From Roseateles sp. (GTDB taxonomy: Bacteria > Pseudomonadota > Gammaproteobacteria > Burkholderiales > Burkholderiaceae_C), in NCBI RefSeq assembly GCF_019237615.1, contig NZ_JAFAGT010000067.1, forward strand, positions 1-58,373: a stretch of DNA of 58,373 nt. The letters are read 5' to 3'. Below, piece by piece: positions 16,494-26,788 of this stretch (position 1 is its first letter; each line of letters begins with the position of its first letter). The notes beneath the pieces are model-generated. The model made no database searches, was not told the origin of the DNA, and saw nothing but the letters and a program-made list of their open reading frames with translations. Position numbers and translations under genes: made by a program.

Positions 16494-16548
16494 GCGCCTC
16501 GGCCGATTCACGGCCTTTTCACGCCCGCGTGACAAGCTTGCGACGGAG

Positions 16549-17832
16549 ATGTCCTCCGTCCTGCCCGGCCCCTGCCCCCTGCACCGCCCCGCCCTGCCAC
16601 AGGGCTTCGCCCTCGTCATCGGTGCGCAGTTCGCCTCGGCCCTGGCCGACAACGCACTGCTCATCGTCGCCATCGCGCTGCTGTCGCAGCAAGGCTTCGC
16701 CCCCTGGTGGGCCCCACTGCTGAAGTTCGGCTTCATGGCGGCCTATGTCGTGCTGGCGCCCTGGGTGGGGCCGCTGGCAGACGCCTTCGCCAAGGGCCGC
16801 GTGATGGCCGCGATGAACGTCGTGAAGATGGGGGGTCTCGCGCTGCTGGCCTGCGGCCTGCACCCGGTCGCGGCCCTGGCCGTCGTCGGGCTGGGTGCAG
16901 CGGCCTATGCACCAGCCAAGTACGGCCTCATCACCGAGATGGCCGAACCCGAGGCGCTGGTGAAGGCCAACGGCTGGATAGAGATCAGCGTCGTGTCCGC
17001 GGCGCTTCTGGGCGCGGTGCTGGGAGGCGCCCTGGTCAGCCCGCAATGGCTGGGCTCGGAGCTGGCGGACTGGTGCGACCACCTGGACCTGCCGGCCGAG
17101 AAGCTGACCGGCTCGCTGGCCGCACTGCTGCTGATCTATGCGGTGAGCAGCGGGCTCAACGCCGGCATCCGCGACAGCGGGCTGCGCCAGCGCAGCGAGG
17201 CGCACGACCCGCTGACGCTGCTGCGCGAGTTCCGCGCGGCCAACCGCAGACTGTGGCGCGACCGCGAGGGCGGGCTGTCGCTCGCCGCGACGACGCTGTT
17301 CTGGGGCGTCGGCGCGACGCTGCAGTTCGCCGTGCTGCGCTGGGCGGGCGTGGCGCTGGAACTGCCCCTGAGCCAGGCGGCCTATCTGCAGGCGGCGGTG
17401 GCCGTGGGCGTCATCATCGGTGCAGCGGCGGCGGGGCGCTGGCTGGCCTTGCACCAGGCGCGGCGTGGGCTGTGGGCGGGCGTCGCGCTGGGCTTGCTGA
17501 TGCCGGTCGTCGCCCAGGTCAGCGACGTCGCGCTGGCTGCCGTCGTGCTCGCCCTGGTCGGCGCCGTCGGCGGCGCCATGGTGGTGCCGCTGAACGCGCT
17601 GCTGCAGCACCGCGGCGCCTTGCTGCTGAGCGCGGGACGGTCGATTGCGGTGCAGGGCTTCAACGAGAACCTGAGCGTGCTGGCGATGCTGGCGGCCTAT
17701 GCGGGGTGCGAAGCGGCGGGCGCGCCCATTGCGGTGACGCTGAGTGGGTTGGGGATGCTTGTGGCGGGGGCGATCACCACGCTGATCTGGACCGACGCGA
17801 GGCGGCGAAAAAGTTCCCCGCCGCCGTCGTAG
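16549..17832 (+). CDS. lplT: Lysophospholipid transporter LplT
   Basis: 427-residue MFS protein with about 12 membrane segments. The N-terminal VIGAQFASALADNALLIVA and AAYAPAKYGLITEM are typical of LplT, which flips lysophospholipids inward for re-acylation. It is usually paired with acyltransferase Aas, which is not in this window. It stands alone on the plus strand here, between the TPR gene and the lipid-remodelling locus. The ATG at 16549 fits the family start. Confidence 0.92.
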   Translation: MSSVLPGPCPLHRPALPQGFALVIGAQFASALADNALLIVAIALLSQQGFAPWWAPLLKFGFMAAYVVLAPWVGPLADAFAKGRVMAAMNVVKMGGLALLACGLHPVAALAVVGLGAAAYAPAKYGLITEMAEPEALVKANGWIEISVVSAALLGAVLGGALVSPQWLGSELADWCDHLDLPAEKLTGSLAALLLIYAVSSGLNAGIRDSGLRQRSEAHDPLTLLREFRAANRRLWRDREGGLSLAATTLFWGVGATLQFAVLRWAGVALELPLSQAAYLQAAVAVGVIIGAAAAGRWLALHQARRGLWAGVALGLLMPVVAQVSDVALAAVVLALVGAVGGAMVVPLNALLQHRGALLLSAGRSIAVQGFNENLSVLAMLAAYAGCEAAGAPIAVTLSGLGMLVAGAITTLIWTDARRRKSSPPPS

Positions 17833-18191: not shown

Positions 18192-19436
18192 TCACGCCAC
18201 CGGCTGCAACCCCTGCACCGCGAACCCCGGCTCGACCCGCCCAATCGCCCCTTCCAGGACGGACTCGAAGCGCGCAGTGATGTCGCCCCAGTCCAGCCGC
18301 CGCGCGGTCGCCCGGGCCGCGTCGGCGACGGCGTGGCGCAGTGCCGCATCCGAGGCCGCCACACGCGTCGCGGCGACGAAGTCGGCCTCCCGGCCCGCCC
18401 CCGCCAGCCAGCCATTCACGCCGCTGCGGATCAGCTCGCCGGCCGCCGCGCTCTCGAAGGCCACGACAGCGCAACCACTGGCCATGGCCTCTGTCGTCAC
18501 ATTTCCGAAGGTCTCGGTGAGGCTAGCGAACAGGAACAGGTCCAGCCCGGCGTAGTGCGCCGCCAGGTCGTCGCCGCTGCGTTGCCCGGCGAACACCGCG
18601 TCGGGCACCCGCGCAGCCAGCTCGGCGCGCATCGGCCCGTCACCGACGAGCACCAGCCGCGCGCGCGGCTGCACCGCCTTCACGGCCTCATACGCGGCCA
18701 GCACGACGCCGAGGTTCTTCTCCGGTGCAAGCCGGCCGACATAGCCCATCACGAGGTCGTCGGGTCCCGCGCCCCAACTCTCGCGCATCGCGGCGCTGCG
18801 TCGCGCCGGATCGAAGCGTTGCGCATCGACACCACGTCCCACCACCGTCAGCCGCTCGAAGCCGCGCTCGGCCAGCAGCACGCGCATCGCCTCGGTGGGC
18901 ACCATGGTGGCGTCGCAGCGGTTATGAAACTTGCGTAGATAGCCCATGATGGGCTTGGACAGCAGGCCCAGGCGGTAATGCTTGCCGTAGGCGTGGAAGT
19001 TGGTGCGGTAGTCCGACGTGACGGGCAGCGAAAGGTGTTGCGCGGCCTGCAGGGCCGACCAGCCCAGCGGCCCTTCGGTGGCGATGTGAACCACGTCGGG
19101 GCGGCGCAGCGACCACAGCTTCACCAGCGCACGCTTGCTGGGCACGCCCATTCGCAGGTTGGGGTACAGCGGCACGGGCAGACCCTTGGTCAGCACCTCA
19201 TCGACCTCGGGCCGGAGCGCGCCGGCCTGCACCGCCATCCGGGCCGGCTGGCGCGGGCGGATCAGCTGCACGTCGTGGTTGCGACGGTTCAGACCGTCGA
19301 CGACGCGGGCCATGGACATCGCGACGCCGTTGACCTCGGGCGGATAGGTTTCCGTCACCACGGCAAGCCGGCGCGAGTGGCGCGGCGCGAGCAGGTCGTC
19401 GACCAGGATGTCGTCGGTGTCAGTTGCGGTGTTCAT
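18192..19436 (-). CDS. GT4 glycosyltransferase, candidate diacylglycerol glucosyltransferase (Agt-like)
   Basis: 414 residues, GT-B fold, no membrane helix. The N-terminal domain has TETYPPEVNGVAMSMARVV. The C-terminal nucleotide-sugar domain has GRLAPEKNLGVVL, the loop VGDGPMRAEL, and the EX7E motif in ETFGNVTTEAMASG. It resembles the MgtA/SqdX-type lipid glycosyltransferases. A strong Pho box lies 22 bp before its ATG. A PlcP-type phosphoesterase gene is 3.5 kb away. These suggest it glycosylates diacylglycerol to replace phospholipids when phosphate runs low. Other acceptors, such as mannosyl targets, cannot be excluded from sequence. Confidence 0.82.
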   Translation of the reverse strand: MNTATDTDDILVDDLLAPRHSRRLAVVTETYPPEVNGVAMSMARVVDGLNRRNHDVQLIRPRQPARMAVQAGALRPEVDEVLTKGLPVPLYPNLRMGVPSKRALVKLWSLRRPDVVHIATEGPLGWSALQAAQHLSLPVTSDYRTNFHAYGKHYRLGLLSKPIMGYLRKFHNRCDATMVPTEAMRVLLAERGFERLTVVGRGVDAQRFDPARRSAAMRESWGAGPDDLVMGYVGRLAPEKNLGVVLAAYEAVKAVQPRARLVLVGDGPMRAELAARVPDAVFAGQRSGDDLAAHYAGLDLFLFASLTETFGNVTTEAMASGCAVVAFESAAAGELIRSGVNGWLAGAGREADFVAATRVAASDAALRHAVADAARATARRLDWGDITARFESVLEGAIGRVEPGFAVQGLQPVA

Positions 19437-19458
19437 GCAGAGATGGTCACGACTGCGT

Positions 19459-19476
19459 GCAACAGAACGATGACAG
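19459..19476 (-). promoter_or_regulatory. Pho box (PhoB binding site) upstream of the glycosyltransferase
   Basis: Minus-strand CTGTCATCGTTCTGTTGC fits the two 7-bp direct repeats separated by 4 bp of the PhoB consensus: CTGTCAT, CGTT, then CTGTTGC. The first repeat is perfect. It lies 22-40 bp upstream of the glycosyltransferase start codon. The match is by eye. Confidence 0.65.
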
Positions 19477-19550
19477 CGGAGCCGTCACGCCGATTTCACG
19501 CAAGCACCCCACCATCCGCCCCGCTTGCCACCCAAACACAAGGACGGGAC

Positions 19551-20165
19551 GTGAACGAGTTCTTCCAAACCCTGAAGATCCAGCGCTGGGACGACCACCG
19601 CTACTACCACCACAGCCGCATCAACCAGAGCCTGCACCTGATCAGCGCCTTGAGTTTCCTGGTGGCCTACGGCATGGTGTTCGTGAACCCTGCCTGGGCC
19701 GCGCTGCTGGCCTGGTGCGTGTCGATGACGACGCGCCAGGCCGGTCATTTCTTCTTCGAGCCGCGCGGCTACGACGAGGTCAACCAGGCCACCGACGAGC
19801 ACAAGGAAGAGATCAAGGTGGGCTACAACATCCGCCGCAAGATCGTGCTGCTGGCGGTATGGGTCGCCCTGCCGGCCGTGCTGTGGCTGGCACCGTCGCT
19901 GGGCGGCCTGATCGAGCCGGCCGTGGGCCTGCAGGCCTATCTGGAGGACGTGGGCATGGCCTGGTTCTGCCTCGGTGTCGTGGGCCTGTTCTTCCGCGTC
20001 GGCCAGCTGTGGGCGACCCAGGGCGCGATGCAGGCCTTCGCCTGGATGACCAAGATCCTGACCGACCCGATCCACGACGTCTACCTGTACCACAAGGCAC
20101 CGCTGTATCTGCTGCGCGGCGAGCTGATCGACCCCATGCACCACATCGGCGGCGAAGCCCGCTGA
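19551..20165 (+). CDS. Mpo1-like (DUF962) membrane protein
   Basis: 204 residues with four or so membrane segments. The N-terminal pattern HRYYHHSRINQSLH followed by a helix and RQAGHFFFEP matches the H...N..LH and GHxxFE features of the DUF962/Mpo1 family. Yeast Mpo1 is an Fe(II) dioxygenase in alpha-oxidation of 2-hydroxy fatty acids. The GTG at 19551 has an AAGGA Shine-Dalgarno 6-7 nt upstream. It is divergent from the glycosyltransferase and shares the Pho-box region. A lipid-related role is consistent with its neighbours. The family call is from motif shape, so it stays tentative. Confidence 0.6.
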   Translation: MNEFFQTLKIQRWDDHRYYHHSRINQSLHLISALSFLVAYGMVFVNPAWAALLAWCVSMTTRQAGHFFFEPRGYDEVNQATDEHKEEIKVGYNIRRKIVLLAVWVALPAVLWLAPSLGGLIEPAVGLQAYLEDVGMAWFCLGVVGLFFRVGQLWATQGAMQAFAWMTKILTDPIHDVYLYHKAPLYLLRGELIDPMHHIGGEAR

Positions 20166-20184
20166 AGCTGTCGCCACCGCAGCG

Positions 20185-20213
20185 AGAAAGGGCCCGCGTC
20201 GCGGGCCCTTTCT
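20185..20213 (+). terminator. Strong hairpin terminator after the Mpo1-like gene
   Basis: A 13-bp stem, AGAAAGGGCCCGC with GCGGGCCCTTTCT, has a GTC loop. It starts 20 bp after the stop codon and carries the TTT of a short U-tract inside the 3' arm. Confidence 0.75.
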
Positions 20214-20342
20214 GCGTGGCGCACGCGCATGGCGGGGCGAGCGCCGGACCGCTCCGGGGGCCGGATCACGGCGACGTGCTCGCCGCCCCCTGAGGACCGA
20301 CCAGCCTTGCCCGCTTGCGGCAGGGCCGGGCTGGACGAGGAC

Positions 20343-21989
20343 TCAAAACTTTCTGGCCAACATCTCGCGGAAGACGCCGCGGCGTATGGCCTTGGCGGTC
20401 AGCTCCGGCGCCGTCCACCACCAGCCGTCGGCGCGCATCTCATCGCAGGCGGCGACGAAGCGGTCCATGACCTCGGCAAACTCGGCGTCGCCGTAGTTGA
20501 GGCTGAAGATCAGCCGCCCCGTACCCACCCAGCTCAGCGCCAGGCCCTGCTTGCGCAGGTAGAACTGCAGCATCCAGTGGTAGCGGCCGGGCTGGTCGTA
20601 CATCACCGTCCAGATCGTCGACAGGCTGGCCATGCGCACCGGCGCACCTGCCGCCTTGAGGCGGGCATTGAACTGCGCGCAGCGGGCATTCCAGCGCTCG
20701 TCCAGGCCGTCGTAGAGCGCCTGCACCTCGGGGCGCTCCATCCGCTTCAGGAAGGACGCCATCGCGGCGACGACGTAAGGATGGGCGTTGAACGTGCCAC
20801 GGGCGAAGCAGATGTCGGCCGGGCGGTCCTCGCGGTAGCGAGTCATCAGCGCGCGGCTGCCGCACACCACACCCACCGGCAGGCCGCCACCCAGCGTCTT
20901 GCCGTAGGTAACGAGGTCGGCCTTGACTCCGAAGTATTCCTGCGCACCGCCGGGCGCGAGGCGGAAGCCGACGAAGACCTCGTCGAAGATCAGCACGATG
21001 CCGCGCGCGCTGCAGACCTCGCGCAGCTTCTGCAGCCATGCTGCGTAGGCCTCGCGGTCGTAGCCGGCGCGACGGCTGCCGTCGATCAGCGCGGAGTCAC
21101 CAGGCGCGTTCGCGTTGGGGTGCAGGGCCTGCAGTGGGTTGACCAGCACGCAGGCAATGTCTCGGCGCGTGGCCAGCACCTTCAGCGAGCGCTCGGCCAT
21201 GTCCTGCAGCGTGAAGGTGTCGCGCGGCGGCAGCGGGTTGCCGGGGCCGGGCTGCACGTCCTCCCACCAGCCGTGATAGGCGCCAGCGAAGCGCACCAGG
21301 CGCTTCTTCCTGGTGTGATAGCGCGCCAGCCGCACGGCCTGCATGACGGCCTCGGTGCCGGACATGTGGAAGCTGACCTCTTCCTGGCCGGAGATGGCCT
21401 TCAGCCGCGCGAGCACGTCCAGCACGCAGGGGTGGTATGCGCCCAGCACCGGACCCAGATCGCGCGTCGTCGCGACGGCCTCGTCGATGCAGGCCTTGTA
21501 GGCGTCATAGCCCAGCAGGTTGACACCGTACGAGCCTGTCAGGTCGTAGAAGCGGTTGCCGTCCAGATCCTCGACCTGTACGCCCTCGCTGTGCCGCAGG
21601 AAGGCGCCCACCTTCAGGTGCTCGCGCAGCACCGGGCTGAACTGGAAGGGCACGCGGTAGCGGCCAGTGAAGCGCAGGTCGGAGATCGTTTCGCGCGCCG
21701 CCTCTGTGGCGGCCAGCGTCTTGGCGAAGCGGGCGTCGAACTCAGCCCCCAGGCGCACCAGCGCGGCGCGGCGCTCGCTGGCGACGTCGGCCGGCGCACC
21801 GTCGGCGGCGAAGAACTGCGCATCGTCATAGGCATAGCCCGGCACCCAGCGCGCCAGCCGCTTGGCCATGCGCGAATGGCCGGCCAGTGAGCGGTGCTTG
21901 GCGCGCGACAGCTGCAGCCTCTGCCTGGCCGCGGGCAGGAGGGCCAGCACGCCGAGGGCCAGGGCCGAAAGGGTCAGGGATTCGTCCAT
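20343..21989 (-). CDS. Class III PLP aminotransferase (glutamate-1-semialdehyde aminotransferase-like) with N-terminal extension
   Basis: 548 residues. The PLP lysine is K364 in DLVTYGKTLGGGLPVG. The phosphate and ring contacts are in MSGTEAVMQAVRLAR, FAGAYHGWWED, and D336 in IVLIFDEVFVGFR. About 110 residues precede the part that aligns with HemL-type enzymes. They begin with a short hydrophobic segment (residues 5-20) and a basic stretch, which suggests membrane association. The start has a GGAAGA Shine-Dalgarno. It is divergent from psd and lies inside the lipid locus, so the substrate may be a lipid head group rather than glutamate-1-semialdehyde. That role is inferred only from position. 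Confidence 0.85.
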   Translation of the reverse strand: MDESLTLSALALGVLALLPAARQRLQLSRAKHRSLAGHSRMAKRLARWVPGYAYDDAQFFAADGAPADVASERRAALVRLGAEFDARFAKTLAATEAARETISDLRFTGRYRVPFQFSPVLREHLKVGAFLRHSEGVQVEDLDGNRFYDLTGSYGVNLLGYDAYKACIDEAVATTRDLGPVLGAYHPCVLDVLARLKAISGQEEVSFHMSGTEAVMQAVRLARYHTRKKRLVRFAGAYHGWWEDVQPGPGNPLPPRDTFTLQDMAERSLKVLATRRDIACVLVNPLQALHPNANAPGDSALIDGSRRAGYDREAYAAWLQKLREVCSARGIVLIFDEVFVGFRLAPGGAQEYFGVKADLVTYGKTLGGGLPVGVVCGSRALMTRYREDRPADICFARGTFNAHPYVVAAMASFLKRMERPEVQALYDGLDERWNARCAQFNARLKAAGAPVRMASLSTIWTVMYDQPGRYHWMLQFYLRKQGLALSWVGTGRLIFSLNYGDAEFAEVMDRFVAACDEMRADGWWWTAPELTAKAIRRGVFREMLARKF

Positions 21990-22046
21990 CGGTTCTTCCG
22001 GAAATTCACGAAGGTTTCAGATGTAGCTGCGACGCTTGACAGCGGA

Positions 22047-22931
22047 ATGAATGACAAAACCATGACCACCGCCCGGGGCCGCATCCAGCGCCTCTTCGCC
22101 CAGGAAGACTTGAACTTCCTGCTGACCAACCGCGTACCGCGCATTGCGCTGACGAAGGCGATGGGGCGCTTCTCGCGCATCGAAAGCCCGTGGCTGACGA
22201 GGCTGTCCATCGCCGTCTGGCGGCTGTTCACACCGCTGGATCTCAGCGAGGCCAGGCACCAGTCCTTCCGCTCGCTGAAGGACTGCTTCACGCGCGAGCT
22301 CAAGCCCGGCGCTCGGGTATTCGACGCCCGGCCCGACGTGGTGTGCAGCCCCAGTGACGGCATCGTCGGCGCCTGCGGCTCCGTGCAGCAGGGCCAGGTC
22401 TACCAGGCCAAGGGCTTCCCGTACTCGACGGCGGAACTGTTCGGCCCGACGCAGGACGCCAGCGCCTTCGAGGGCGGCCGATTCGTCACGCTGCGCCTCA
22501 CGTCGGCGATGTACCACCGCTTCCACGCCCCGGCGGACGGTACGGTGGAGCACGTGACCTACCTCAGCGGCGACACCTGGAATGTGAATCCGGTGGCGCT
22601 GAAGCGCGTGGAGCGGCTGTTCTGCCGCAACGAGCGCGCCGTGGTGCGCATGACGCTGGCCAGCGGCCATGCGATCGCGCTGGTGCCGGTGGCGGCCATC
22701 CTGGTGGCCAGCATCCGCCTGCATTTCCTCGACGTGCTGCTGCACCTGGGCCGCCGCGGCGCCCATGAGATGCCATGCTCCGCGCCTCATCTCAAGGGCC
22801 AGGAGATGGGCTGGTTCGAGCATGGCTCCACCATCATCGTCTTCGTGCCACAGGGCTTCGAGCTGGCCGAGGGCATTGCGCCCGGCGCGCAGCTCCGCGC
22901 CGGCCAGGCGCTGCTCAGGCGGGTCGACTGA
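22047..22931 (+). CDS. psd: Phosphatidylserine decarboxylase
   Basis: 294-residue proenzyme making phosphatidylethanolamine from phosphatidylserine. The decarboxylase core carries CSPSDGIVG and MYHRFHAPADGTV. The autocatalytic cleavage site is the GST in FEHGSTIIVF, where the Ser becomes the pyruvoyl group. The length and order fit the E. coli-type enzyme. ATG 22047 is listed; ATG 22062 is also possible, and neither has a strong Shine-Dalgarno. Its 3' end overlaps the convergent plcP gene by 17 bp. It may be the housekeeping enzyme or a second copy tied to this lipid locus. Confidence 0.93.
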   Translation: MNDKTMTTARGRIQRLFAQEDLNFLLTNRVPRIALTKAMGRFSRIESPWLTRLSIAVWRLFTPLDLSEARHQSFRSLKDCFTRELKPGARVFDARPDVVCSPSDGIVGACGSVQQGQVYQAKGFPYSTAELFGPTQDASAFEGGRFVTLRLTSAMYHRFHAPADGTVEHVTYLSGDTWNVNPVALKRVERLFCRNERAVVRMTLASGHAIALVPVAAILVASIRLHFLDVLLHLGRRGAHEMPCSAPHLKGQEMGWFEHGSTIIVFVPQGFELAEGIAPGAQLRAGQALLRRVD

Positions 22932-23826
22932 CCCGGTCCGGCGCGGCGACCTTCGCGACGGCCGGCACCGGCAGGCCCACCGGCGCCGGTTTCGACTTGG
23001 GCGCCGGCAGCATGCCGGGCAGCGCAGCCTGGTCGCCACGGTCGATGATCTCCAGCCGGCCGTCGAAATGCTCAACCAGGGCCGTCAGGCTCTCCACCCA
23101 GTCGCCGTCGTTGCAGTACAGCACGCCGTCGATCTCGCGGATCTCGGCATGGTGGATATGGCCGCAGACGACGCCCTGCGCACCGCGCTTCTTCGCCTCG
23201 CGCGCGACGGCATTCTCGAATTCGTTGATGTAGCTGACCGCGCGCTTGACCTTGTGCTTCAAGTAGCGCGACAGGCTCCAGTACGGCAGGCCACATTTGG
23301 CGCGGATGCGGTTGAACCAGCGGTTGACCTTGAGCGTGAACTCGTAGGCCAGGTCGCCCGCAATAGCCAGCCAGCGCGCGCACTGGATGACGCCGTCGTA
23401 CAGGTCGCCATGCGTGACCCACAGCCGCTTGCCGTCGGCTGTCACGTGGATGGCCTCTTCCATCACGTCCACGCCGCCGAAGTTGTGCATCAGGTATTTG
23501 CGCGCGAACTCGTCGTGGTTGCCGGGGATGAAGATGACGCGCGTGCCCTTGCGCGCCTTGCGCAGCAGCTTCTGCACCACGTCGTTGTGCGCCTGCGGCC
23601 AGTACCAGGAGCGCCGCAGCTGCCAGCCGTCGATGATGTCGCCGACGAGGTAGAGGGTCTCGCATTCCACGTCGCGCAGAAAGTCGAGCAGAGCCCGCGC
23701 CTGGCAACCGGGCGTGCCCAGGTGCAGGTCGGAGATCCAGACGGTGCGCACCGACAGCATGGGTGCGTCGGCGGCAGGGTCAACGGCAGCGGCGTTGGGG
23801 TCTTGCTTCGTCGGCATGGCGGGCAT
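22915..23826 (-). CDS. plcP: PlcP-type metallophosphoesterase (calcineurin-like; often misannotated as LpxH)
   Basis: 303 residues with all metal motifs of the calcineurin fold: D33/H35 in SDLHLG, GD at 62-63, GNHD at 102-105, H139 in THGD, and GHIHH. The stretches SWYWPQAHNDVVQKLLRK and GDWVESLTALVEH match my recollection of rhizobial PlcP. That protein is a phosphate-starvation phospholipase C releasing diacylglycerol from phosphatidylcholine and phosphatidylethanolamine. LpxH-like UDP-diacylglucosamine hydrolase is the usual automatic label. It follows ybeY by 42 bp on the same strand, with no Pho box directly upstream, so it may be expressed from the phoH-ybeY unit. Confidence 0.82.
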   Translation of the reverse strand: MPAMPTKQDPNAAAVDPAADAPMLSVRTVWISDLHLGTPGCQARALLDFLRDVECETLYLVGDIIDGWQLRRSWYWPQAHNDVVQKLLRKARKGTRVIFIPGNHDEFARKYLMHNFGGVDVMEEAIHVTADGKRLWVTHGDLYDGVIQCARWLAIAGDLAYEFTLKVNRWFNRIRAKCGLPYWSLSRYLKHKVKRAVSYINEFENAVAREAKKRGAQGVVCGHIHHAEIREIDGVLYCNDGDWVESLTALVEHFDGRLEIIDRGDQAALPGMLPAPKSKPAPVGLPVPAVAKVAAPDRVSRPA

Positions 23827-23868
23827 GCTGCCCGCCCGTCGTGACGCGGCCGTGAACGTCCGATCTGG

Positions 23869-24315
23869 CTAGCGCCGATAGGGGTCCGAGAAGCCAAGGC
23901 CTGCGAGGATCTCGGTCTCGCGAGCCTCCATGCACTCGGCCTCGTCGTCCACCTCGTGGTCGTAGCCCTGCGCGTGCAGCGTGCCGTGCACCAGCATGTG
24001 GGCGTAGTGGTCCAGCAACGGGATACCCATTTCGGCGGCCTCGCGCTCGACGACCTCGGCGCAGATGACCAGATCGGCGCCCACCACGGGCTCGTGGCTG
24101 TAGTCGAAGGTCAGCACATTGGTGGCGTAGTCCTTGCCGCGGTATTCGCTGTTCAGCGCGCGGCCCTCCTCGGCGCCGACGATGCGCACGGCGATCTCGC
24201 CGGGCAGTTCCAGCGCGGCGCGGATGAAGCGCGCCACCTTGTGACGCGGCAGCAGCGCGCGGTGGCGCGGGTCGGCGAATTGCAACGACAGGCTCAGTTC
24301 GGGTCGGGTGCTCAT
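23869..24315 (-). CDS. ybeY: rRNA maturation endoribonuclease YbeY
   Basis: 148-residue zinc-dependent endoribonuclease for 16S rRNA 3' maturation and ribosome quality control. The metal-binding [11 protein letters not shown] motif is intact, and [16 protein letters not shown] is a family signature. The start codon overlaps the phoH stop (ATGA), the usual ybeZ-ybeY coupling. Confidence 0.96.
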
Positions 24316-25277
24316 GCTTCGCGTCCTTCGCGCTTGGCGCGCGCCTCGTAGGCCTCGACGATGCGGGCCACCAGCGGATGGCGCACGACGTCCGCGCTGG
24401 TGAAGCGCGTCATCGCGATGCCCTTGACCTTGGCCAGCACGCGCTCGGCGTCGACAAGGCCTGACTGCACGCCACGCGGCAGGTCGATCTGGCTGGTGTC
24501 GCCGGTGACGACGCAGCGGCTGCCGAAACCGATGCGAGTCAGGAACATCTTCATCTGTTCTGGCGTCGTGTTCTGCGCCTCGTCGAGGATGACAAAGGCA
24601 TGGTTGAGCGTGCGGCCGCGCATGAAGGCCAGCGGCGCGACCTCCAGTTGGCCCTTCTCGAAGGCCTTGGTGACGCGGTCGAAGCCGAGCAGGTCGTAGA
24701 GCGCGTCATAGAGCGGACGCAGATAGGGGTCGACCTTCTGCGTCAGGTCACCGGGCAGAAAACCCAGGCGCTCGCCGGCCTCGACGGCGGGACGGGTCAG
24801 GATGATGCGCTGCACGGTGGAGCGCTCCAGCGCGTCGACGGCGCAGGCGACGGCCAGGAAGGTCTTGCCGGTGCCCGCCGGCCCCAGGCCGAAGGTGATG
24901 TCGTGCGAGAGGATCTGCCGCAGGTACTGGTGCTGGCGTGGCGTGCGGGCCGACAGGTCGGCGCGCCGGGTGCGCAGCACCAGCGGGCCTTCCTCACCGG
25001 CCGGGGCTGCGGCGCCGCCCTCCCCCCGGGCCTCGACGAGGGCCAACTGCAGCGTTTCTGCCGGCAGCGGCCGGCGGGCGCGTTCGTAGAGGGCCTCGAG
25101 CAGGCTCCTGGCCCGCTCGGCCGCGGCCTTGGGGCCGTCAACGCGGAACTCGGCGTCGCGCCGGCTCAGCTTGACGCCGAGCGCGGCCTCGACCTCGCGC
25201 AGGTGAACGTCCAGGCTGCCGCAGACGCGGGCCAGGCGGGTGTTGTCGGCGGGTTCCAGGGCGAAGCGCAGGATCAC
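24312..25277 (-). CDS. ybeZ: PhoH-like ATPase YbeZ
   Basis: 321 residues. The Walker A motif is [11 protein letters not shown], and the Walker B-like motif is [11 protein letters not shown]. The N-terminal KH-like part starts [16 protein letters not shown], which matches the usual family start. For that reason the GTG at 25277 is preferred over an upstream ATG that would add 44 atypical residues. PhoH/YbeZ is an NTPase that partners YbeY in rRNA processing. Despite the name it is not evidence for Pho regulation here. Confidence 0.93.
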
Positions 25278-25378
25278 GATGAGGCTAAAAAAGAGTGGAC
25301 GCGGATTGTCGCCGCCTCCCGATCGCTGGTGCATTCCCCGGCCCGCAGGCGGCGGGCGCTCCCGCACAATGCCGCCCC

Positions 25379-26788
25379 ATGACATCTTCGATCGCGCCGA
25401 GGGCCGCAATGGCTCGGCGCCCGCCCCCTTCTTTCCTGCTCGCCCTGGCCCTGCTCTGCCCCGTCGCGGCCCAGGCCCAGGCGCCGACCACGGGCCTGTA
25501 CTGGGCGGCCACGCTGCACGCCTGGGTGGCCGCCATGCTGGCGCTGATGGCCACCGTCGTAGGCCTGGTCTCGGGCCTGCATCCCCGCGAGCGCCCGGCC
25601 AGCTTCCTCGTCGGCATGATGCTGAGCTGGGTCGTGTTGCGCGCCGCCGCCGCGCCGAGCGCGGCCGGCCTGAGGCCGTTGCTGATGACGCTGCTGGTGC
25701 TGTGCGGCGTGCAATACCTGCTGCGACAGATGAACTGGAAGCGTGGCTGGATAGACCATGCGCTGCTGATCCAATGCCTGGTCGTCCCCGCCAGCCTGCT
25801 GTGGACGGGCGGCCAGGTCGGCATCCTCGGTACGGTCTGGCATGCGGTACTGAGCCTGGAGCTGGTCGCCGCGATGGGCTGGGCGCTGTGGCTGCGCCGC
25901 CCGCAGGTCGGCGCCGACGAGGCCCAGCCGCGCGACTTCGGCCTGATGGCCGTGCTGCTGCTGCCGACCATGGCGGCCCTGGTCGCCGAGATGCTGCTGG
26001 CTGCCACCAGCGAATCGCTGTGGTGGACGGCCTCGCCGTGGCTGGGCCTGATGCTGCCCCTGCTGATGCTGGCCCTTGGCCTGCAACTCGTTAGCAGCGT
26101 CGCGCATGCCCGGGTCGACGCCGAGAAGCGGATCGCGGCCATCGAGCAGCGCACGGCGGAACGCATCGCCGAAGTCGAGCGCAGCCACGGCCAGCTCGCC
26201 GAGCAGAAGCTGGAGCAGGTCACCGAGCGCGAGCGCAAGCGCATCGCCGCCGACCTGCACGACGACCTGGGCGCCAAGCTGCTGACCATCGTGCACACCA
26301 GTGAGTCCGACCGCATCTCCACGCTGGCGCGCGAAGCGCTGGAGGAGATGCGGCTTTCGGTGCGCGGCCTGACCGGCAAGCCGGTGCACCTGATCGACGC
26401 GCTGGGCGACTGGCGCGCGGAGGTCGTGTCGCGACTGGGCCAGGCCAACATCCTGGCCGAATGGAAATCGCCCGCCGAGGACGTCGAGCACACGCTGCAG
26501 GCCCGCTCCTACGTGCAGACGACGCGCATCCTGCGCGAGTCGGTGAGCAACATCATCAAGCACAGCGGCGCGACGCATGCGACCATTTCCAGCGCCGTGC
26601 AGCAGGGCGATTTCATCCTGACCATCCAGGACAACGGCCAGGGCATCCCGTCCGAACTGGACGGCAGGCTGGACAGAGGCCATGGCATGGCGAGCATGAA
26701 ATCACGCGCCAAGCAAATGCATGGCCAGTGCCTGGTTGAATCCGGCCCTGGCTGGGGTACTGTGATCCGTCTGACGATTCCGCTTTGA
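25379..26788 (+). CDS. Membrane sensor histidine kinase, NarL/DesK type
   Basis: 469 residues. After a hydrophobic N-terminus come about six or seven membrane helices up to residue 240. A coiled coil follows (about 245-285), then a HisKA_3 dimerisation box with phospho-acceptor H294 in AADLHDDLGAK. A short HATPase domain carries the N-box ESVSNIIKHSG, DNGQGIP and GHGMASM. No periplasmic sensor domain is visible, so the stimulus may be sensed within the membrane. ATG 25379 is chosen; MARRPP ten residues on is an alternative. The partner regulator begins 11 nt downstream. Confidence 0.92.
   Translation: MTSSIAPRAAMARRPPPSFLLALALLCPVAAQAQAPTTGLYWAATLHAWVAAMLALMATVVGLVSGLHPRERPASFLVGMMLSWVVLRAAAAPSAAGLRPLLMTLLVLCGVQYLLRQMNWKRGWIDHALLIQCLVVPASLLWTGGQVGILGTVWHAVLSLELVAAMGWALWLRRPQVGADEAQPRDFGLMAVLLLPTMAALVAEMLLAATSESLWWTASPWLGLMLPLLMLALGLQLVSSVAHARVDAEKRIAAIEQRTAERIAEVERSHGQLAEQKLEQVTERERKRIAADLHDDLGAKLLTIVHTSESDRISTLAREALEEMRLSVRGLTGKPVHLIDALGDWRAEVVSRLGQANILAEWKSPAEDVEHTLQARSYVQTTRILRESVSNIIKHSGATHATISSAVQQGDFILTIQDNGQGIPSELDGRLDRGHGMASMKSRAKQMHGQCLVESGPGWGTVIRLTIPL

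Follow-up and report, generated by a model that had tools for sequence, protein, structure and literature searches.

In Pseudomonas aeruginosa, PA3219-PA3218 is described as a pair of plcP and a gene for a family GT4 glycosyltransferase, with Agt1 reported to make monoglucosyl-diacylglycerol and Agt2 (PA0842) glucuronosyl-diacylglycerol (PMC8528852). Six types of plcP neighborhood were distinguished in marine bacteria, in a paper whose available portion holds no word beginning with 'Burkholder' (PMC4796936). Among 43 Burkholderia sensu lato genomes, 21 were predicted to have Pho boxes upstream of olsB, and P. xenovorans is reported to replace phosphatidylethanolamine (PE) at low phosphate, PlcP going unmentioned in the excerpt at hand (PMC7814305). 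Here we analyze a stretch of 58,373 nucleotides from Roseateles sp. (contig NZ_JAFAGT010000067.1, hereafter the window), whose host genome spans 4.8 Mb and is 99% complete. Positions 18192-23826 hold genes for a GT4, an Mpo1-related protein (Mpo1rel), a class III aminotransferase (AT3), a second phosphatidylserine decarboxylase (PSD2) and a metallophosphoesterase (plcP). We consider it likely, at a probability of about 0.8, that the core of this island is a PhoB-controlled PlcP-Agt2 system of membrane lipid remodeling. Such remodeling would be of a known kind, in a layout that appears to be undescribed.

Gene content and organization

An earlier note on this DNA had proposed a locus for lipid remodeling under phosphate starvation. 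Its five genes are all present where it had placed them, profile matches and open reading frames (ORFs) agreeing, so that its observation is confirmed and its interpretation, judged from sequence, is supported. The genes are the following.

Positions 18192..19436, minus strand: agt2-like GT4, predicted diacylglycerol glucuronosyl/glucosyltransferase (profile matches, tree, 48% identity to a P. aeruginosa glycosyltransferase)
Positions 19551..20165, plus strand: Mpo1rel, membrane protein of 204 amino acids (aa) with a GTG start (weak Pfam Mpo1-like match, invariant H16, H20, H29 and H66)
Positions 20343..21989, minus strand: AT3, class III aminotransferase of the glutamate-1-semialdehyde (GSA) type, dependent on pyridoxal phosphate (PLP), with an N-terminal hydrophobic helix and K364 as the probable PLP lysine
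Positions 22047..22931, plus strand: PSD2, second phosphatidylserine decarboxylase (PSD), with a GST processing motif
Positions 22915..23826, minus strand: plcP, PlcP-type phospholipase C (metallophosphoesterase)

The starts of Mpo1rel (19551), PSD2 (22047) and, probably, plcP (23817) were placed from sequence and alignment, and plcP and PSD2 share 17 bp at their tails. The change of strand from gene to gene is confirmed and is the commonest layout, seen in 67 of 80 AT3 loci. Nor are plcP and the glycosyltransferase gene joined in one operon, as the same note had remarked; no Agt1-type GT4 lies downstream of plcP on its strand.

The phosphoesterase belongs with PlcP

The plcP product is 57.9% identical to its P. 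aeruginosa homologue and 55.1% identical to that of Sinorhizobium meliloti (tblastn against plasmid records). The former is directly followed by a GT4 gene, and the latter adjoins genes for an acyl-homoserine-lactone synthase and a LuxR regulator, a setting that we take to be that of SMc00171. In a tree of 28 proteins the window enzyme stands with these PlcPs, which were recognized by their gene neighbors, and all 9 LpxH proteins stand apart; the two sides each have 100/100 support and are separated by a long branch. The phylogenetic placement proposed as a check in the earlier note thus groups the phosphoesterase with PlcP and not with LpxH. Against the LpxH profile TIGR01854 it scores 39.7 bits, well short of the cut-off of 190.35, much as the proteins of the P. 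aeruginosa and S. meliloti plcP loci do (44.5 and 38.9 bits). A separate LpxH-family gene (E ≤ 1e-20) was found in 20 of 20 genomes of the genus, above the strict cut-off in 13 of them; that of the window genome reaches 189.4 bits and falls just below it. The motifs SDLH, GDIIDGW, PGNHDE, THGD and GHIHH were read in the plcP product, and we take them to be of the metal-ligand type. On these sequence comparisons the phosphoesterase is PlcP rather than LpxH.

The prediction that annotation would hide PlcP under an LpxH-type name proved true even for P. aeruginosa and S. meliloti, as all 32 plasmid records with a plcP match either name the protein 'UDP-2,3-diacylglucosamine diphosphatase' or leave it without a name. 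Note that some records labeled as plasmids may contain chromosomal stretches (S. meliloti 'pSymB' of 3.7 Mb, and the P. aeruginosa records with plcP and plcH). In Mitsuaria sp. 7, a plcP-type gene lies on a plasmid directly before ppk1 (L042:7917-10983).

The glycosyltransferase is of the Agt2 type

The best match of the island GT4 among plasmid records was a P. aeruginosa GT4 (48.0% identity) that adjoins plcR, a phosphocholine-specific phospholipase C and cerN. We take this neighborhood to be the setting of PA0842. A tree of 32 proteins joined the window GT4 and 15 other island GT4s to P. aeruginosa Agt2 and an Acinetobacter GT4, while 12 of 13 plcP-adjacent GT4s joined P. aeruginosa Agt1; the thirteenth (L076) has a very long branch and its placement is unsure. 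Clustering with non-lipid GT4s, which would have spoken against lipid remodeling, was therefore not what the tree returned, the window protein grouping with the lipid GT4 Agt2. Its best NCBIfam match, N-acetylglucosaminyl-phosphatidylglycerol synthase, reaches 131 bits, far under the cut-off of 480, and P. aeruginosa Agt2 matches the same profile at 135 bits. We consequently assign the GT4 to the Agt2 type and predict a diacylglycerol glucuronosyltransferase, an activity taken from the P. aeruginosa relative. The pairing of PlcP with a diacylglycerol glycosyltransferase that had been proposed is supported, but the partner is of the Agt2 type and the pair is not the usual plcP-agt1. An Agt1-type partner appears to be absent from the window genome, since no other GT4 match was found there at E ≤ 1e-20. 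Nine genus mates (G002, G005, G008-G010, G012-G014 and G016) have an additional GT4 elsewhere in the genome, with about 50% identity to that of the island.

Pho boxes precede several island genes

Upstream of pstS, all 20 genus genomes carry NNGTCAC-N4-NCGTCAY, 10 bp and TAG(G/C)AT, with small variations. A half-site matrix built from these promoters only was applied to 116,712 window positions, to which the ranks below refer, and a site was counted when it scored at least 10. This matrix replaced the E. coli consensus, which is weak in the genus as a sole guide to Pho boxes. The sites of the island are given here.

Positions 23841..23858, minus strand: Pho box of plcP, CGTTCACGGCCGCGTCAC, rank 4, then 10 bp, the -10 element CAGCAT (23825-23830) and the ATG at 23817
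Positions 19482..19499, plus strand: divergent Pho box towards Mpo1rel, CCGTCACGCCGATTTCAC, rank 10, then 10 bp and CACCAT (19510-19515)
Positions 22051..22068, minus strand: Pho half-sites towards AT3, TGGTCATGGTTTTGTCAT, rank 1, overlapping the PSD2 start, with no -10 element at 10 bp
Positions 22036..22053, minus strand: Pho half-sites towards AT3, CATTCATTCCGCTGTCAA, rank 45, then 10 bp and TACATC at 22020-22025
Positions 19459..19476, minus strand: Pho box of GT4, CTGTCATCGTTCTGTTGC, rank 301, then 10 bp, GACCAT (19443-19448), 6 bp and the ATG at 19436
Positions 22003..22020, plus strand: weak Pho-box-like site towards PSD2, AATTCACGAAGGTTTCAG, rank 279

The Pho box that the earlier note had seen before GT4 is indeed the best E. 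coli-type site of the window, agreeing with CTGTCATNNNNCTGTCAY at 12 of 14 bases, a level attained at 1 of 116,712 positions, but it scores poorly on the pstS matrix of the genus. With the last base of the E. coli consensus fixed as T, the window holds 5 sites with at most 3 mismatches where 2.2 are expected; 5 of 100 shuffles also reach 5 sites, so this box alone is only suggestive. The box is retained in the genus alignment, followed by 10 bp, a (G/C)A(C/G)CAT-like -10 element, 6-7 bp and the ATG. Stronger boxes, beyond those listed by that note, lie before plcP, before Mpo1rel and between AT3 and PSD2. The plcP promoter resembles that of GT4 in layout, and in both the presumed -10 element stops 6-7 bp short of the start codon (19434-19448 and 23817-23830); leaderless or nearly leaderless messages are therefore predicted.

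Boxes were then counted in the inner loci (L044-L063, comprising 19 genus relatives and G035 of another family) and in the outer loci (L160-L230). The inner loci score at least 10 before plcP in 20 of 20 cases and before Mpo1rel in 19 of 20, and the outer loci before Mpo1rel in 61 of 69, GT4 in 28 of 66, AT3 in 26 of 69 and plcP in 11 of 20. The AT3 box follows orientation, being present in 6 of the 7 loci with AT3 inverted (the seventh scores 8.7) versus 1 of 13 operon loci. Base-shuffled sequences reach a score of 10 in 0.8 to 1.8% of cases, and random 150-bp pieces in 2.5%; of 214 control regions upstream of other long ORFs, 13 do so. Of the ten best sites, three fall within 235 bp, for which the probability is about 8e-6 if random, the stretches having been fixed after the ranks were known. 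A pstS-like box 10 bp before a -10 element was thus found for plcP, Mpo1rel and the inverted AT3, in weak form for GT4, and not for PSD2. PhoB scores above its family cut-off in 20 of 20 genus genomes. Overall, the boxes point to PhoB control of plcP, Mpo1rel and AT3, from which we infer induction by phosphate limitation in this organism.

The plcP promoter element is retained while the sequence further upstream diverges between species. In the window, plcP stands directly behind phoH-ybeY (23827-25409). Although the 19 genus stretches returned no match to YbeY or PhoH, they retain the plcP promoter element.

Conservation of the block

All five genes occur in 19 of the 20 genus genomes, that of the window included. 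The exception, G011, is 83% complete; its contig ends 182 bases past Mpo1rel and no GT4 was found in the genome. The same block is carried by G035, which belongs to another family. AT3 lies on one strand with Mpo1rel and PSD2 in 13 of the 20 genus genomes, often with start and stop touching, and is inverted in the other 7, including the window's. Because 18 of 19 genus relatives keep the five genes and the plcP promoter element is retained, chance adjacency is unlikely.

From a scan of named genomes for AT3, the best 80 loci of 577 relatives were retained, 9 of which are from genus members; among them are Roseateles saccharophilus DSM 654 (L156) and Pelomonas aquatica KCTC 42961 (L154), in both of which the island was seen. 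In these 80 loci tblastn found Mpo1rel in 79, a PSD in 78, a GT4 match in 76 and PlcP nearby in 30; PSD, AT3, Mpo1rel and GT4 occur together in 74. When 46 genomes from the 71 outer loci were searched whole, 45 had PlcP. In 200 genomes of the order, AT3 (E ≤ 1e-100) was found in 22 and PlcP (E ≤ 1e-60) in 92, PlcP being present in 20 of the 22 genomes with AT3 versus 72 of the 178 others (Fisher p about 5e-6, ignoring shared ancestry).

Next to GT4 and convergent with it lies a possible sixth member of the island, listed here with its upstream sites.

Positions 16549..17832, plus strand: lplT, lysophospholipid transporter (453.7 bits against a cut-off of 297)
Positions 16505..16533, plus strand: tandem Pho-type half-sites upstream of lplT, ranks 16 and 18, with no fixed -10 layout

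The gene recurs in 17 of the 19 stretches from the genus and in 33 of the 71 outer loci, and its upstream region scores at least 10 in 11 of the 17 and 13 of the 33, respectively.

The trio of AT3, PSD2 and Mpo1rel

Exactly two PSD matches were found in each of the 20 genus genomes. The island PSD2 scores above the cut-off of TIGR00163 (156.3 bits against 111.75) and has the processing motif HGST, but it is 32% identical to the other PSD of its genome versus 51-87% to the 17 island PSD2s compared; the island PSD2s form their own clade with 100/100 support in a tree that includes 8 of the 20 other PSDs. The presence of two PSDs throughout and the separate clade rule out an ordinary housekeeping PSD. 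Because its clade is separate from the other PSD of the genome, the substrate of PSD2 may differ from phosphatidylserine.

In both sequence and fold (model pLDDT 82), the solved proteins closest to AT3 are the aminotransferase domain of mycosubtilin synthase and glutamate-1-semialdehyde aminomutases. Residue 364 is an invariant lysine within a GKT motif, and the N-terminus carries a hydrophobic stretch. Phosphoethanolamine phospho-lyase was considered and rejected, the nearest relatives being of the GSA and mycosubtilin type instead; the hopanoid aminotransferase HpnO, a further candidate identity, was dropped.

Mpo1rel is a helical protein with the four invariant histidines given above. The gene for an Mpo1-like protein named in the earlier note is present, but the label is weak: the match to Pfam Mpo1-like PF06127 reaches 22.4 bits and misses the gathering cut-off of 24. 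All 31 family members scanned match Mpo1-like at E ≤ 1, and the Mpo1-like protein near P. aeruginosa plcP scores 143.5 bits on PF06127. A structure search with the Mpo1rel model returned no match at E ≤ 0.001, and the fold is accordingly uninformative.

The trio extends well beyond the genus. In a sample of the phylum, AT3 was found at E ≤ 1e-70 in 25 of 398 genomes, and in stretches taken from 20 of these it is accompanied by a PSD and Mpo1rel in 19, the exception (L258) being a 4.4 kb contig. Sphingomonas parapaucimobilis (L278) is the named case outside the class. Two loci from the taxonomic order of the window have a nearby GT4 that is 60% and 47% identical to that of the window, and six further loci have a GT4 match of 24-30% identity. 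One of these six (G616) is of the same class but of another taxonomic order; the other five come from other classes, as do seven loci with 31-35% identity that are weighed below. In the three of the six that were checked, the GT4 is the C-terminal part of a protein of 890-958 aa, in the order AT3-fusion-PSD-Mpo1rel. The long N-terminal part of these fusions (L271:10503-13175, L274:2344-5025 and L276:5608-8484) is without a Pfam match, and a PHP-like motif (DLHCH) found no Pfam support.

A gene for a small S-adenosylmethionine (SAM) methyltransferase overlaps Mpo1rel beside AT3 and PSD2 in Sphingomonas (L278:10834-12107) and in another locus (L268:7931-9204). Pfam assigns it only to generic methyltransferases; it presumably resembles a PE methyltransferase.

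The recurrence of the trio beside different glycosyltransferases suggests that its members form a unit connected with glycolipid synthesis. As PSD enzymes produce PE and the neighboring methyltransferase presumably resembles a PE methyltransferase, we favor, as a guess, work of the trio on an amine-bearing lipid pool.

Proposed mechanism

At low phosphate, PhoB would bind the direct-repeat Pho boxes and switch on plcP, GT4, Mpo1rel and AT3; PSD2 and lplT are perhaps also under its control. PlcP would strip the phosphate-bearing head group off phospholipids to yield diacylglycerol, which the Agt2-type GT4 would cap with glucuronic acid, or possibly glucose, from a UDP-sugar. The predicted product is a phosphate-free anionic glycolipid standing in for phospholipids. 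In this scheme gene identities, clades, block and Pho boxes are read from the sequence, the chemistry of PlcP and Agt2 is carried over from other organisms, and the identity of the product is deduced. Ornithine-type lipids may add to the response, since OlsB-type (Acetyltransf_5) matches are present in 20 of 20 genus genomes.

PSD2, AT3 and Mpo1rel would form a conserved accessory unit on the side of amine-bearing (PE- or phosphatidylserine-type) lipids. PSD2 might produce or channel a lipid of the PE type. AT3 might be anchored in the membrane and transaminate a keto or aldehyde substrate that is lipid-borne or acyl. We regard this chemistry as doubtful. A broader proposal, slightly less doubtful and still unlikely, is that the trio represents an undescribed PhoB-controlled pathway building an amine-bearing, possibly phosphate-free substitute for PE while PlcP-Agt replaces anionic phospholipids, and that it is shared well beyond the Burkholderiales, in other classes of the phylum, with whichever GT4 each lineage has.

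Alternative explanations

Several observations weigh against PhoB-controlled PlcP-Agt2 remodeling or limit its reach. The box of GT4 itself is weak by the pstS matrix (rank 301) and reaches 10 in 1 of 19 genus loci, and 9 of the 28 outer GT4 sites are a stronger box directed towards Mpo1rel and read on the opposite strand. PSD2 lacks a convincing box, with scores of at least 10 in 1 of 69 outer and 1 of 20 inner loci, and xAxxxT stands 10 bp away in only 36 of the 61 boxes found before Mpo1rel in outer loci. Since PlcP lies within the stretch in 30 of 80 AT3 loci, the block of trio and GT4 is not tied to plcP by position. One of the 46 island genomes searched is without PlcP, as are 2 of the 22 AT3 genomes in the order sample at E ≤ 1e-60; furthermore, the 80 loci represent the nearest relatives of AT3, and common descent is not taken into account in the co-occurrence test. 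In loci outside the class, the neighboring GT4 reaches at most 31-35% identity (seven loci), and four loci (L263 and L268-L270) are without a detected GT4.

These points feed several rival explanations. It is improbable, in our judgment, that the GT4 acts on another lipid acceptor, such as phosphatidylglycerol or a lipid of the lipopolysaccharide (LPS) or ceramide type, so that the locus would not be a switch from phospholipid to glycolipid. Its top NCBIfam profile would fit such an acceptor, and GT4s of Caulobacter are reported to act on ceramides under phosphate starvation (PMC6445935); however, the diacylglycerol-acting Agt2 of P. aeruginosa matches the same profile and the tree joins the two GT4s. 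To a similar degree we doubt that PSD2, AT3 and Mpo1rel are bystanders, chance neighbors with no connection to phosphate or lipid remodeling. The missing box of PSD2 and the four loci lacking a detected GT4 would accord with this, but the trio is intact in 19 of 20 AT3 stretches across the phylum beside different GT4s, an AT3 inverted relative to the operon has its own Pho box, and PSD2 forms a separate clade. Regulators of the OmpR/PhoB type can have similar half-site motifs, and 13 of 214 control upstreams also score at least 10; binding of another OmpR-family regulator, with the island answering a different stress, is nevertheless a more remote prospect than either of these, given a matrix drawn from pstS promoters only and a 10-bp spacing to the -10 element that matches pstS in the genus. 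Least probable by far is that the annotation is right and the phosphoesterase acts as an LpxH-like enzyme of lipid A. Although its closest solved structures by sequence and its best NCBIfam matches are LpxH, it scores like the plcP-locus references and far below the LpxH cut-off, stands in a clade apart, and shares its genome with a far better LpxH-family match; this explanation is already largely refuted.

Comparison with known systems

Among open-licence PMC papers, surveyed mostly at the level of search listings, we recognized no description of the trio or of a betaproteobacterial PlcP-Agt system; one of the papers listed, PMC13086504, contains both 'plcP' and 'Betaproteobacteria'. If PhoB-controlled PlcP-Agt2 remodeling holds, PlcP-Agt remodeling would extend to the Burkholderiales (Roseateles, Limnohabitans, Hydrogenophaga, Polaromonas and Variovorax), the block having been masked by the LpxH name, and lipid replacement in these groups should be considered when estimating how much phosphorus bacteria need in soil and fresh water. 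The trio, with its own PSD clade and orientation-following Pho boxes, would mark a probable new step of bacterial lipid metabolism.

The closest described system is the PlcP-Agt1/Agt2 pathway of P. aeruginosa (PA3219, PA3218 and PA0842), which shares with the island the phospholipase family (58% identity), the GT4 subfamily of Agt2 (48%) and Pho boxes. There, however, plcP is paired with agt1 and agt2 stands beside plcHR, whereas the window has an agt2-type gene in one block with plcP, no Agt1-type match in the genome (E ≤ 1e-20), and PSD2, AT3, Mpo1rel and perhaps lplT in addition. The rhizobial and marine plcP-agt pair likewise brings PlcP together with a GT4, and in nine other Burkholderiales loci (L064-L072) an Agt1-type GT4 adjoins plcP; unlike that pair, the window draws on the other GT4 subfamily and has its genes on alternating strands behind separate promoters. 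LpxH (UDP-2,3-diacylglucosamine hydrolase) resembles the phosphoesterase in its calcineurin-like family and metal motifs and differs in its separate clade and the sub-threshold score of the window protein. Finally, AT3 differs from its nearest solved relatives, the mycosubtilin synthase domain and glutamate-1-semialdehyde aminomutase, in being free-standing, in its N-terminal hydrophobic helix and in an identity of about 27%.

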